Assembly: GCF_001884135.1 (NCBI RefSeq)
Contig: NZ_MAOC01000077.1
Span: 1 to 64,000 of the forward strand
Length of the DNA stretch: 64,000 bases
Direction of reading: 5' to 3'
DNA from: Bacillus nitratireducens
GTDB lineage: Bacteria; Bacillota; Bacilli; Bacillales; Bacillaceae_G
Shown here: in pieces, positions 19,306 through 28,377 of the stretch
Layout: each line of letters opens with the position of its first letter
Position numbering within the stretch: the first letter of the stretch is position 1
Position numbers and translations under genes: made by a program
Notes under the pieces: generated by a model
What the model was told of the DNA's origin: nothing
Database searches by the model: none
What the model saw: the letters and a program-made list of their open reading frames with translations, nothing else

Positions 19306-20679
19306 TTATTTTACTTTTACTTGAGTTAGCACAGATTTAAACGTATTAATAACTGTATCTACTTCTTCATAGCTAATTGTAAGGGATGGTTCAATACGAA
19401 TTGTTTTTGAGTTAATTAATGTTCCCGCAACAAGAATACCTTGATCAAACATCGCCTTTGACACTTCATAACCAATCTCGTCTTTATGGAATTCAATCCC
19501 AATCATTAAACCTTGACCACGAATTTCAAAGATTTTATCTTCGTGCCCTTCTGCTGCTTGTTTCAATCCATTTAAGAAATACTCCCCAACTTCCATCGCT
19601 CGTTCCGGTAATTTCTCTTCCAATAATACATGGATTGTTGCAATTGCAGCAGCACATGCAAGAGGATTCCCGCCAAACGTTGTTGTATGCATAAATGGAT
19701 TTTCAAACCAACTTTGGAATACTTTTTCTTTCGCAACAATAGCCCCCGCTGGCATTACACCTCCACCAAACGCTTTCGCAAGACAAATAATATCCGGCAC
19801 AACATCATATAAATCTGCTGCAAACATTTTTCCTGTACGGCCCATTCCAGTTTGCACTTCATCAAAAATAAGGAGCGAATCAAACTCATCACAAAGCTCT
19901 CGCACTTGTTTCAAATAATTTTCTGGAGGTAAAATAATGCCGCCCTCCCCTTGAATTGGCTCTAAAATAACTGCTGCAACATCTTCTCCCACTAATGCAC
20001 ATGTCTCAAATGTTTTTCTCATCATATCAATATCGCCAAATGGAACATGACGGAAACCCGGAATTAATGGTAAGAATGGCTTACGGAACATTCCTTTTGC
20101 CGTCCCAGATAAAGCACCAAGGCTCTTCCCATGGAAAGCACGAGTTGTAGAAATAAAAGTTGTTCGTTCACTATACATTTTTGCTAGTTTTAATGCTGCC
20201 TCTACGCTTTCTGTTCCACTATTTGTGAAGAAGGCATATTTCAAATCACCAGGTGTAATATCCGCTAAAATCTTTGCAAGAATTGCTCGAAGTGGATCTA
20301 GTAAATCCTGACTGTGCAATGCTTGACGCTTTAATTGATCTGTTACAGCTTTGACTACTTTCGGATTACGGTGACCAACATTATAAATTCCGAATCCACC
20401 TAAACAGTCAATGTATTTTTTACCATTAATATCCATGAAACAAGATCCTTCATCAGACCATTCTACTGCTGCAAATTGTCCATCTTTTGTTACTGTTTTT
20501 CTATAAGCAAGAAAACCAGGGTTCACATGCTCTCTAAATCCGTCTACTGTTTCTTTTTGAATCCAATTTGCCTCTTCTTCAGATACTTTTTCTTTTTCAA
20601 TTAACTGTAGTACTTTCGTAATATACTCATTTACATTTGATTCTTTCTCATTCAATTTATTTTTCACGTTCGTTTCCAT
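19306..20679 (-). CDS. patA: Putrescine aminotransferase PatA
   Basis: This 457-residue class III PLP aminotransferase is closely similar in my recall to E. coli PatA (YgjG) along its whole length, for example [58 protein letters not shown] and [12 protein letters not shown]. The PLP lysine lies in [12 protein letters not shown] (about 295-300) and the Asp in [12 protein letters not shown]. It transfers the amino group of putrescine to 2-oxoglutarate, giving 4-aminobutanal (cyclising to pyrroline) and glutamate. The ATG directly follows the TAG stop of the aldehyde dehydrogenase gene, so the two are coupled under one sigma-54 promoter. Confidence 0.9.
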
Positions 20680-22173
20680 CTAATTCACCTCTACATTTTT
20701 TTTATTTGCAAACCAACCAATAGGTTCTACTTCTAGATTTATATTAATCTGCTTAATTTCTTGAAATTCTTCTAAACCAAATGTTCCTAGACTACGACCT
20801 ATACCACTTTGCTTATATCCACCCCAAGGCGCCTCATTGTATGTTGGATGATAGCTATTAATCCAAGTAATGCCTGCACGAAGCTTGCGAATTACGCGCA
20901 TTGCTTTTGCACCATCAACCGTAAATACCCCTCCAGCTAAGCCATAATCCGTACCGTTTGCTAACTCAATTGCTTCCTGTTCAGTTTTAAACTTTTGAAT
21001 TACTACAACAGGACCGAAGATTTCTTCCTGGACAATGCGCATATCAGGTTTTACATTGACAAAGACTGTTGGTTCAATAAAGAAACCATCACCTTTTCCA
21101 TCCTCCATTATTCGTCTACCTCCGCAAGCAACGTTTGCACCTTCGTCTTTTCCAATTTCAATATAACGTAATACTTTTTCCATATGTTCTTGACTTACAA
21201 GTGGCCCCATTTCTGATTCCGGTTTATCACCAGGTCCAACGTTAATTTGCTGCGCTCTCTCTACAAAACTATTAACAAATCTATCATAAACGCTTTCCTC
21301 TACAAGAATTCTCGATCCTGCTGAACACACTTGTCCGCTACCTGCATAAATACCGAATAGAGCATAATCAATAGCAGTCTCAAAATCTGCATCTGCAAAA
21401 ATAATATTTGGAGATTTCCCTCCAAGTTCTAACGAAATCTTTTTCATATTATCTGCCGCTGTTCTCATAATGTGCTTACCTGTTTTTGTTCCACCTGTAA
21501 AGGAAATCATATCCACTTTATGACTCGCTGCAATTTCATTCCCTACTATTGGACCGGCCCCCATTACCATATTGGCAACACCTTTTGGTAGCCCTACTTT
21601 TTCAAGAATTTCGAATAGCTTTGTTGCAGTTATTGGTGTCACTTCAGAAGGTTTAAACACAATTGTATTGCCAGCTGCTAAAGCAGGTGCAATTTTCCAT
21701 ACACTCATCAATAGCGGATAATTCCATGGAACAATTAATCCACAAACACCAACTGGCTCTCTTACTACCATGGCTTGCATCGGATCGGCTACATGATATG
21801 TTTGGCCATCTGGCTTTGTAATCAATCCGGCATAATAGCGAAAACAAGCCGCTGCATCTCCAATATCTCCTTCTGCCTCACGGTATGTTTTTCCATTATC
21901 CATTGTTTCAAGGTATACTAATTCTTCCATATTTTTATCAATTTCATCTGCTATTTTAAATAAATATGATGCTCTTTCAGCAGTGGATGTTTCTGACCAA
22001 ATTCCGCTATCGAAAGCCGCTCTTGCCACTTCTATTGCGTATTTTGCGTCCTCAATCGTTCCTTCAGGTGCATATGCTATACCCTTGCCATTCGCAGGGT
22101 TAATAATCGTTCTTTTTTCTTGATTACTAGAGTCTCTCCATTCACCGTTTACATACATTTTTAAATCTAGCAC
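20680..22173 (-). CDS. Aldehyde dehydrogenase, probable 4-aminobutanal dehydrogenase
   Basis: A 497-residue NAD(P)-dependent aldehyde dehydrogenase with the catalytic Glu in LELGGKSPN (about 264), the nucleophile Cys in GQVCSAGSR (about 298), and NAD-binding FTGGTKTGK. By sequence it belongs to the betaine/aminoaldehyde dehydrogenase group; pairing with PatA makes 4-aminobutanal to GABA the likely reaction. GTG 22173 follows AAAGGAGG. It is the first gene after a sigma-54 promoter. Confidence 0.88.
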   Translation of the reverse strand: MLDLKMYVNGEWRDSSNQEKRTIINPANGKGIAYAPEGTIEDAKYAIEVARAAFDSGIWSETSTAERASYLFKIADEIDKNMEELVYLETMDNGKTYREAEGDIGDAAACFRYYAGLITKPDGQTYHVADPMQAMVVREPVGVCGLIVPWNYPLLMSVWKIAPALAAGNTIVFKPSEVTPITATKLFEILEKVGLPKGVANMVMGAGPIVGNEIAASHKVDMISFTGGTKTGKHIMRTAADNMKKISLELGGKSPNIIFADADFETAIDYALFGIYAGSGQVCSAGSRILVEESVYDRFVNSFVERAQQINVGPGDKPESEMGPLVSQEHMEKVLRYIEIGKDEGANVACGGRRIMEDGKGDGFFIEPTVFVNVKPDMRIVQEEIFGPVVVIQKFKTEQEAIELANGTDYGLAGGVFTVDGAKAMRVIRKLRAGITWINSYHPTYNEAPWGGYKQSGIGRSLGTFGLEEFQEIKQININLEVEPIGWFANKKNVEVN

Positions 22174-22210
22174 TATATTGAATCCTCCTTTATCGATCGT
22201 TTATATATTT

Positions 22211-22230
22211 ATAAGCAATTTCCATGCCAA
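22211..22230 (-). promoter_or_regulatory. Sigma-54 promoter of the aldehyde dehydrogenase-patA unit
   Basis: On the minus strand TTGGCATGGAAATTGCTTAT fits the -24/-12 consensus TTGGCACG-N4-TTGCA with GG and GC elements spaced correctly. It lies about 40 bases before the GTG start. Confidence 0.85.
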
Positions 22231-22255
22231 TATTTAAAATTCAAAAGAATCATAC

Positions 22256-22382
22256 ATAAAGTGAAACTTTAATCAGCCCTCACCAATCGGGCGTTTACAG
22301 GCAGCGGGGCTTCCAGCCTAACTTCTTTGCTCCACCTGAATTTTGAGGTGGGAGTTTTACTGCCCACAAATAGCGGGATAAA
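22256..22382 (+). repeat. bcr1-like repeat, shortened copy (B)
   Basis: GTGAAACTTTAATCAG at 22261 continues directly into CCCTCACCAATCGGGCG, lacking the first hairpin present in copy A, and ends AAATAGCGGG. ATAAA flanks lie at 22256-22260 and 22378-22382. The insertion sits between the sigma-54 promoter and the enhancer dyads of the ald-patA unit. Confidence 0.82.
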
Positions 22383-26885: not shown

Positions 26886-28235
26886 TTATATTTCCTGTGC
26901 TTCTTCAAAATGCATTTGCGGAGGAGCTGAACGGAACATATTTGTAACATATAGAAGGTACCCAATTCCAATAGCAGCCCAGCAAATCCCTAGAATAAGT
27001 GAATGAATATTGAGGTTAAACCATAGTACTGCTACAGTACCAGCACCTAAAATAGGCATCACTAAGAAATTTAAACAGTCTTTTATCGTCTTATATCTTT
27101 TTTTCTTAATTACATAGTAGGAAATTACAGATAAATTAACAAATGTAAATGCAATAAGCGCTCCAAAATTAATAAGAGATGCTGCCGTTTCTAAATCAAT
27201 GAATATAGCGGAGAGTGAAATAATCCCTACAATAATAATGTTATATACTGGAGTTCGCCATCGAGGATGAATGTATCCGAATATTTTCTTCGGAATTACA
27301 TTATCTCGCCCCATTACGTATAATAATCGAGATACACTTGTATGGGAAGCTAAACCGGACGCAAGTGTCCCCATAAGGGTTCCTACTAAAAAGAAAGCTT
27401 GAAATAATTTCCCACCAACATATAGTGCAATTTCTGGAGATGCTGATTCTTGATTTTTAAATACAGCTGTATCTGGAAACATAGATTGTGTAAAATACGT
27501 AGTTGTAATGAATAAAACTCCACCAATTAAAGCAGTAAGAAAAATAGCTCGAGGAATTGTCTTCTTCGCGTTTGGTGTCTCTTCAGAAAATGTAGTTACT
27601 GCATCAAAACCTAAAAATGAAAAACAAAGAATTGTCGCACCTGCAACTAACGGTGATATTTGTATATCCGATTGAAAAAACGGCTGAATGGAAAAAACTT
27701 CTCCTGTTCCCTCTCCCGCTAATAAACCTTTTATAACTAGAAAAACAAACACGGCCATTACTAGCACTTGAAATATTACTAAAAAAGTATTGAAGTTAGC
27801 AGTAACATTCACGCTAATAATATTTATAAGTGTAATCAGTAGAATAAAACCGATGACCCATATCCAACTAGGAACACTTGGAAAAAATGCTGACAAATAA
27901 ATTCTCGTTAATAGTGCGTTCACCATCGGTAGAAACAAATAATCCAATAACGCGGACCATCCAACAAGAAATCCAAGCCTTGCACTAATTGTCTTCTGTG
28001 TATACGTATAAGCTGATCCTGCGGTAGGAAAAACCTTTACCATTTTGCCGTAGCTTGCAGCGGTAAACAACATCCCTGCTAATGCAATCAAATAAGCTCC
28101 TGGAACATGCCCACCCGTTTTTTCCGAAACAATTCCAAACGTATCAAATCCAACCATCGGTGTCATGTACCCGACCCCTAGCATAACAATTGACCACAGC
28201 CCTAATGAACGTTTTAAACCAACTACTTTTCCCAC
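26886..28235 (-). CDS. puuP: PuuP-like putrescine importer (APC superfamily)
   Basis: The 449-residue protein has twelve predicted transmembrane helices and closely follows E. coli PuuP in my recall: MTPM...FDTFGIVS near helix 1, [65 protein letters not shown] and [10 protein letters not shown]. It would import putrescine by proton symport. The start is GTG 28235, eight bases after GGGGG. It has its own sigma-54 promoter and a cre-like site, and stands beside the PatA/aldehyde dehydrogenase genes. Confidence 0.85.
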
Positions 28236-28290
28236 CTATCATTCCCCCTACTTTTTCTATCTAATTTCTATTTAAAAATCGACAGCAGAA

Positions 28291-28304
28291 AGGAAACGCT
28301 TTCA
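28291..28304 (-). promoter_or_regulatory. cre-like site downstream of the puuP promoter
   Basis: TGAAAGCGTTTCCT on the minus strand matches the CcpA-site core TGWAANCGNTNWCA except at two outer positions. It lies between the sigma-54 promoter and the start codon, where CcpA could block elongation. Confidence 0.5.
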
Positions 28305-28359
28305 AACGACTGTATATACCACACAATCTATTACAATTTCCTTTTGTTTTTAAATATCC

Positions 28360-28377
28360 ATGCAATTTTCGAGCCAA
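28360..28377 (-). promoter_or_regulatory. Sigma-54 promoter of puuP
   Basis: On the minus strand TTGGCTCGAAAATTGCAT matches TTGGCACG-N4-TTGCAT with one difference. It lies about 125 bases before the start codon. Confidence 0.88.

Follow-up and report, generated by a model that had tools for sequence, protein, structure and literature searches.

How is a set of putrescine genes controlled in a Bacillus? In Escherichia coli, patA (ygjG) and the puu genes depend on NtrC and sigma-54, and the same source, in the part drawn on here, describes the Ntr system (NtrB/NtrC) as not reported in Gram-positive bacteria (PMC9397018; this and the other papers cited below are used in excerpt). We addressed the question on a window of 64,000 nucleotides from Bacillus nitratireducens (contig NZ_MAOC01000077.1, positions 1 to 64,000), in which a block of minus-strand genes encodes the putrescine aminotransferase PatA, an aldehyde dehydrogenase (ald), a sigma-54 activator, two proteins of 84 and 96 amino acids, a glutamate dehydrogenase (gdh) and the permease PuuP. 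A first annotation made from the letters alone, called below the sequence-only reading, had listed ald-patA, gdh with two small genes, puuP and an activator within the block, and this content was borne out. The gene set is very probably a pathway-specific sigma-54 regulon for putrescine use, served by a local activator and a palindromic enhancer. Coordinates and scores of its parts are collected in Table 1.

Promoters were sought with a matrix whose training set was 12 promoters of B. thuringiensis HD73, each confirmed by a lacZ fusion (PMC4428206, Table 2); these promoters themselves score between 16.8 and 26.0. Both strands of the window were scanned, that is about 128,000 positions. The three -24/-12 sites proposed by the sequence-only reading were recovered on the minus strand, within a few bases of where it had placed them, as the three best sites of the window. 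Four sites scored at least 18, against a mean of 0.1 in 20 first-order Markov simulations of the window. All three promoters conform to the consensus TTGGCAY-N4-TTGCW with GG-N10-GC, the puuP promoter reading TTGGCTC, one base off TTGGCAY. The fourth-ranked site (56397-56413, score 18.6) lies within a long open reading frame (ORF) on the same strand, which by eye resembles an ABC transporter permease, and is probably a chance match. Terminator-like hairpins at 26847-26883 (after puuP), 24799-24826 (after the gdh operon) and 19195-19231 (after ald-patA) are in keeping with three separate units; the region holds 9 such sites where shuffled sequences predict 3.9. By eye, the ribosome-binding site and the promoter make GTG 26704 the most likely start of gdh, rather than a TTG that overlaps the promoter.

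A common palindrome was found upstream of these promoters. In 55 promoter-upstream regions, the three of the window included, TATGC-N6-GCATA was present in 17, while the maximum for any palindrome across ten simulated sets was 6. From this seed we trained a matrix on relatives, with the window excluded, which reads YTATKCA-N4-TGMATAR. Its four best matches in the window (at 22432, 26818, 22413 and 28451) all lie upstream of exactly these three promoters, the fourth scoring 11.3 against 10.6 for the next, unrelated site. The presence of the predicted enhancer paired with TGGCAY at 36-66 bases also followed that of the activator: of 22 genomes that carry the activator, 16 have this composite, against none of the 7 that lack an activator match at E <= 1e-200, one of which retains activator fragments. 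The reversed pattern, used as a control, occurred in 0 of 29 genomes, and 16 of the 17 composite matches lay beside the cluster.

The activator has the make-up of a sigma-54 enhancer-binding protein, with Walker A, GAFTGA and Walker B motifs and a DNA-binding helix-turn-helix all present. It had first been described as a PAS-AAA-Fis protein. The PAS and AAA+ parts of this description stand, and the DNA-binding domain is instead HTH_50, no Fis model being among the matches listed. Residues 1-120, ahead of the two PAS domains, are CBS-pair-like in a moderate-confidence predicted model. Its score of 426 against the NCBIfam PrdR model is below the cut-off of 795. For PatA, the likeness to the E. 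coli protein was confirmed by the passing of NF008570, by the conservation of all 14 E. coli active-site and entrance residues checked (residues from PMC4244111) and by E. coli PatA being its best match in the PDB (4uox, 593 bits); TIGR03372 was narrowly missed (655.6, cut-off 658.65). PuuP aligns without gaps to E. coli PuuP over 432 amino acids at 60% identity, again as the sequence-only reading had it, and reaches the cut-off of no NCBIfam model listed. The closest matches of the aldehyde dehydrogenase are betaine aldehyde dehydrogenases, and it falls under the cut-off of all 25 NCBIfam models listed; its context suggests that it acts as a gamma-aminobutyraldehyde dehydrogenase. The glutamate dehydrogenase (GDH) of the cluster has as its closest solved structure an NAD (nicotinamide adenine dinucleotide)-specific enzyme (3k92, 615 bits). 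It forms a separate type: in three of the four genomes searched its best match reached 75-81% identity and the next copies 61-65%, and in the fourth, an Ectobacillus with a broken activator, the best match stood at 65%.

Scanning genome contigs with the activator yielded 52 loci, numbered with an L below, the best full-length match being 80% identical; at one of them, L051, the activator is fragmented, and at two it is remote (43% at L047 and 39% at L049). The complete order puuP - gdh - SAV0927-like - 84-aa - activator - ald - patA was found at 15 of them, and the others have one or more members missing or are cut by contig ends. Peribacillus loci retain puuP - activator - patA alone, with a fuller set at L005 (Peribacillus asahii). 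GabT-like and GabD-like genes follow patA at 20 of the 52 loci and, according to tblastn, follow the activator at L025; the L003 pair, the only one run against models, passes the curated ones for GabT and succinic semialdehyde dehydrogenase (SSADH). Sigma-54 sites on the reverse strand occur in the cluster at 17 loci, 12 of which were examined. Behind eight of these 12 sites lies an agmatinase-type gene (L002, L003, L005, L009, L017, L018, L022 and L025), accompanied by the enhancer at seven of the 12 loci (it is absent at L025), and this enhancer may be common to the divergent puuP. The agmatinase-type genes of L002 and L009, the only two run against models, meet TIGR01230. The remaining sites precede a permease gene (L015, L020), an NhaC-type antiporter gene (L041) and no called gene (L039). 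NhaC-type antiporter genes with both a sigma-54 site and the enhancer were found at L041 (8317-9738), at L028, L030 and L046 (near 18200 in each) and at L080 (3129-4761), those of L028 and L041 being checked against a model and the other three judged from similar N-termini; they are likely extra members of the regulon. A PotD-like gene of L025, under its model cut-off, lies behind a sigma-54 site without the enhancer. Omega-type aminotransferases, a betaine aldehyde dehydrogenase-like dehydrogenase or another permease also lie near the same enhancer at L041 (12272-13645), L082 (38-4587) and L083 (3004-4347), which looks like a replacement of PatA in these lineages, or an addition to it.

The agmatinase, GabT and GabD genes of the relatives make a route from agmatine through putrescine and 4-aminobutyrate (GABA) to succinate the most economical reading. 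Together with the PatA model and residues and the identity of PuuP, they leave putrescine, the substrate named by the sequence-only reading, well supported. Alternatively, putrescine might be a secondary substrate of a module that chiefly serves another amine or diamine, be it cadaverine, agmatine or GABA. Cadaverine is also taken by E. coli PatA (PMC4244111, PMC9397018), and a Priestia megaterium plasmid (NZ_CP085417.1, L073, 8871-17927) carries what amounts to a GABA form of the module, with genes for a permease, SAV0927, a small protein, an activator 71% identical to that of the window, GabT, SSADH and GDH, PatA being absent within the 19 kb shown. We hold this to be unlikely in view of the agmatinase-type, GabT-like and GabD-like genes that adjoin PatA in relatives and of the closeness of PuuP to the E. 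coli putrescine symporter, no search for a lysine decarboxylase having been made. On the plasmid, gabT has a promoter scoring 15.3 and an enhancer scoring 16.0, with weaker signals at the permease. Since PatA is absent from these 19 kb, the inducer is expected to be an intermediate common to both modules, namely a four-carbon (C4) compound such as GABA or succinic semialdehyde; an inducer of this kind has been reported for B. thuringiensis GabR (PMC4428206).

Conservation of the promoters was surveyed in the relatives, the window excluded, by counting genes rather than loci that have a site scoring at least 16 within 320 bases. One activator truncated at the end of its contig was left out, as were matches below set identity limits and matches whose alignment did not begin close to residue 1, and the puuP rows include several copies per locus. 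A sigma-54 site precedes 32 of 33 ald genes, the exception having patA first, and 29 of 29 gdh genes. For puuP-like genes the count is 25/46, and 12 of the 21 rows under 16 are Peribacillus genes at 14.4. Sites precede patA in 13/45 cases (12 Peribacillus-type loci and L039, where patA is not behind ald), the activator gene in 0/48, the 84-aa gene in 2/34 and the SAV0927 gene in 1/25, with 3/260 in antisense controls. An enhancer scoring at least 11 accompanies 32/32 ald, 28/29 gdh and 24/25 puuP promoters, counts that are partly circular. At a score of at least 9 it is found in 57 of 59 regions, 55 of which supplied training sites, against 2.5% of 690 control stretches. These conserved promoters and the common enhancer motif 5' of the same genes lend support to the regulon that the sequence-only reading had inferred.

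In B. subtilis the sigma-54 control of glutamate dehydrogenase acts through RocR, which a title cited in PMC4428206 fits, and the RocR-rocG pair belongs to an arginine context. Such control of this enzyme (PMC3162934), and a puuP promoter (19.0) and enhancer (11.3) that are the weakest of the set, would be in keeping with some of the three -24/-12 sites being chance matches or under other activators, ald-patA alone answering to this one. We consider this improbable, more so than a different amine, as the top enhancer matches, from a matrix trained without the window, fall upstream of all three promoters and as gdh in relatives has its promoter in every case and the enhancer in all but one. Less credible still is that the cluster is silent, or no more than a relic, in this strain: the activator fragments that are all Ectobacillus panaciterrae retains (L051, 10001-10981) tell us that loss does happen, but the genes of the window are open and full length, with the PatA residues, AAA+ motifs, promoters and enhancers present.

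For the putrescine regulon we propose the following mechanism. The local activator would bind YTATKCA-N4-TGMATAR at sites that precede the -24/-12 elements by 59 to 201 bp; in response to a pathway signal, its AAA+ domain would open sigma-54 polymerase at the three promoters. PuuP would import putrescine, and PatA would transfer an amino group from it to 2-oxoglutarate, which yields glutamate and 4-aminobutanal. From 4-aminobutanal the aldehyde dehydrogenase would form GABA, which GabT and GabD, both presumably encoded elsewhere in this genome, would take to succinate. Glutamate from PatA and GabT would be deaminated by the dedicated GDH, giving 2-oxoglutarate and ammonium. The resulting 2-oxoglutarate cycle through PatA and GDH, already part of the sequence-only reading, is one that we still only infer; it is consistent with the promoter and enhancer that gdh has of its own in relatives and with a gdh placed behind gabT on the Priestia plasmid. 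A broader picture is tentative, and we doubt that it will hold as a whole: Bacillaceae may have evolved, for the use of nitrogen from polyamines, a sigma-54 switch of their own, in which one activator family senses a shared C4 intermediate through its PAS and CBS-like domains and controls agmatinase, uptake, PatA, the GABA steps, NhaC and a dedicated GDH, with the two small proteins tuning the latter.

Several points speak against a putrescine regulon of this extent. Its support is computational. The puuP enhancer is weak (11.3, the best unrelated site scoring 10.6), and one of its arms is damaged. As relatives supplied the training sites of the matrix, the enhancer counts there are largely circular, and conservation counts are not independent because many loci are close kin. 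The palindrome by itself is present 1 to 11 times in each of the seven activator-less genomes. The aldehyde dehydrogenase fails the PatD models TIGR03374 (364.8 against 909.3) and NF010000 (485.9 against 615), with identities of 38% to E. coli PatD and 41% to E. coli PuuC. The gdh of the Priestia plasmid, third after gabT, is without a promoter or enhancer of its own. Finally, cadaverine may be a substrate too.

The E. coli system resembles the one proposed here by its PatA route and by PuuP, both under sigma-54 (PMC9397018), so that this kind of logic is already known; the regulator there is the general nitrogen regulator NtrC, whereas the block has a dedicated local activator, its own enhancer and gdh included. 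In the gab cluster of B. thuringiensis, a PAS-AAA-HTH activator, GabR, likewise stands beside an aminotransferase and an aldehyde dehydrogenase, but for the GABA step only (PMC4279683, PMC4428206). Eight sigma-54 activators are named in HD73 (GabR, RocR, KamR, SoxR, PrdR, BkdR, AcoR and LevR), and its printed sigma-54 target tables contain no patA, gdh or puuP (PMC4428206). The rocG gene of B. subtilis also encodes a sigma-54-dependent glutamate dehydrogenase, with an enhancer downstream of the gene (PMC3162934), whereas the enhancers described here lie upstream. In Clostridiales, too, sigma-54 regulons (those of PrdR and OrdR among others) have dedicated activators of amino-acid breakdown, each with an enhancer motif, and NhaC belongs to the OrdR regulon; these regulons differ by TGT-N10-12-ACA enhancers in fifteen groups, and the word putrescine is absent from the main text of that source (PMC6615313). 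GABA and putrescine genes are united in one regulon under MocR-type regulators as well, which depend on pyridoxal phosphate and not on sigma-54 (PMC5320631). In a 2025 cross-phylum prediction, the sigma-54 groups of Bacillota/Bacilli include glutamate dehydrogenase, arginase/agmatinase and 4-aminobutyrate aminotransferase, which fits the regulon without, in the parts covered, describing it (PMC12316311). No such regulon was found described for Bacillaceae in the literature searched, which did not extend to the supplementary predicted sites for B. cereus ATCC 14579. We class the block as a probable sigma-54 catabolic regulon, familiar in kind, whose local switch, a dedicated activator with its enhancer motif, appears undescribed. 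It would provide a concrete sigma-54 regulon for the use of polyamine nitrogen, complete with an activator and the sequence of its enhancer, in the Bacillaceae, for which NtrB/NtrC is unreported, and would add to the sigma-54 regulons of the B. cereus group a putrescine target set absent from the HD73 printed tables.

Table 1. Predicted features of the putrescine block, in window coordinates (UAS, upstream activating sequence, the predicted enhancer of the text)
Feature	Position	Strand	Score or match
patA, class III putrescine aminotransferase	19306..20679	-	NF008570 784.9 bits, cut-off 612
Aldehyde dehydrogenase, putative gamma-aminobutyraldehyde dehydrogenase	20680..22173	-	Aldedh 600 bits
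ald-patA -24/-12 promoter, TTGGCATGGAAATTGCT	22214..22230	-	score 21.9, rank 2 in window
UAS copy 1, ald-patA	22413..22430	-	score 14.8, third in window
UAS copy 2, ald-patA	22432..22449	-	score 18.4, top in window
Sigma-54 enhancer-binding protein (CBS-like, PAS, PAS, AAA+, HTH_50)	22565..24694	-	Sigma54_activat 239.9 bits, PAS_9, PAS_4, HTH_50
84-aa degenerate lipoyl-like protein (PRK06748)	24839..25093	-	NF005239 133.1 bits, cut-off 111
96-aa SAV0927-like protein	25115..25405	-	PF11256 65.8 bits, cut-off 25
Glutamate dehydrogenase of the cluster	25424..26704	-	ELFV dehydrogenase
gdh operon -24/-12 promoter, TTGGCACGATTATTGCT	26742..26758	-	score 24.0, rank 1 in window
UAS, gdh operon	26818..26835	-	score 15.8, second in window
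puuP, putrescine permease	26886..28235	-	amino acid permease family; 60% identity to E. coli PuuP
cre-like site, puuP leader	28290..28305	-	perfect match to WTGNAANCGNWNNCWW; one of two in window
puuP -24/-12 promoter, TTGGCTCGAAAATTGCA	28361..28377	-	score 19.0, rank 3 in window
UAS, puuP, weak copy	28451..28468	-	score 11.3, fourth in window

Both small proteins accompany gdh and the activator. A designation of the 84-aa protein as a carrier did not hold up: the column of the modifiable lysine is unconserved in the consensus, with Lys in the window, whereas relatives show Arg, Gln or His among other residues (alignment of 34 rows, of which 14 were viewed). The conserved motifs are EWE and PGMVLA. 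The protein also misses the Pfam biotin/lipoyl model (21.3, cut-off 22.1). The SAV0927-like protein is represented in the PDB by 6iy0 and 8xfu. In HD73, the activator RocR controls a hypothetical gene and one for a 'biotin carboxyl carrier protein' (PMC4428206). The putrescine regulon would give these two small proteins a metabolic home.

The WTGNAANCGNWNNCWW pattern matched in the puuP leader is the consensus of the catabolite-responsive element (cre) recognised by CcpA. The site lies downstream of the predicted puuP transcription start and could possibly act as a CcpA roadblock, through which puuP would come under catabolite control. In the interval between -150 and +207 of the promoter, such a site with at most one mismatch was found for 8/14 puuP, 3/21 ald and 1/21 gdh, against 89/750 control stretches.

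Some further elements of the window were recorded. The dispersed palindromic repeat CATAAAGTGAAACTTTAAT has 6 copies with at most two mismatches (at 15205, 22255, 22445, 33473, 40161 and 45452) where 0.09 are expected, and two of its copies bound a GC-rich segment that lies between the ald and activator genes. A PreQ1 riboswitch (Rfam RF00522) lies at 38402-38445, and a group I intron (Rfam RF00028) at 30726-31059, between two ORFs that look like portions of nrdE. By alignment count, the NrdF protein of the window shows 7 and 9 differences across 322 positions to the PDB chains 4bmo and 6qo5, the B. cereus ATCC 14579 and B. anthracis NrdF proteins; this places the window in the B. cereus group, with an exact match to neither.

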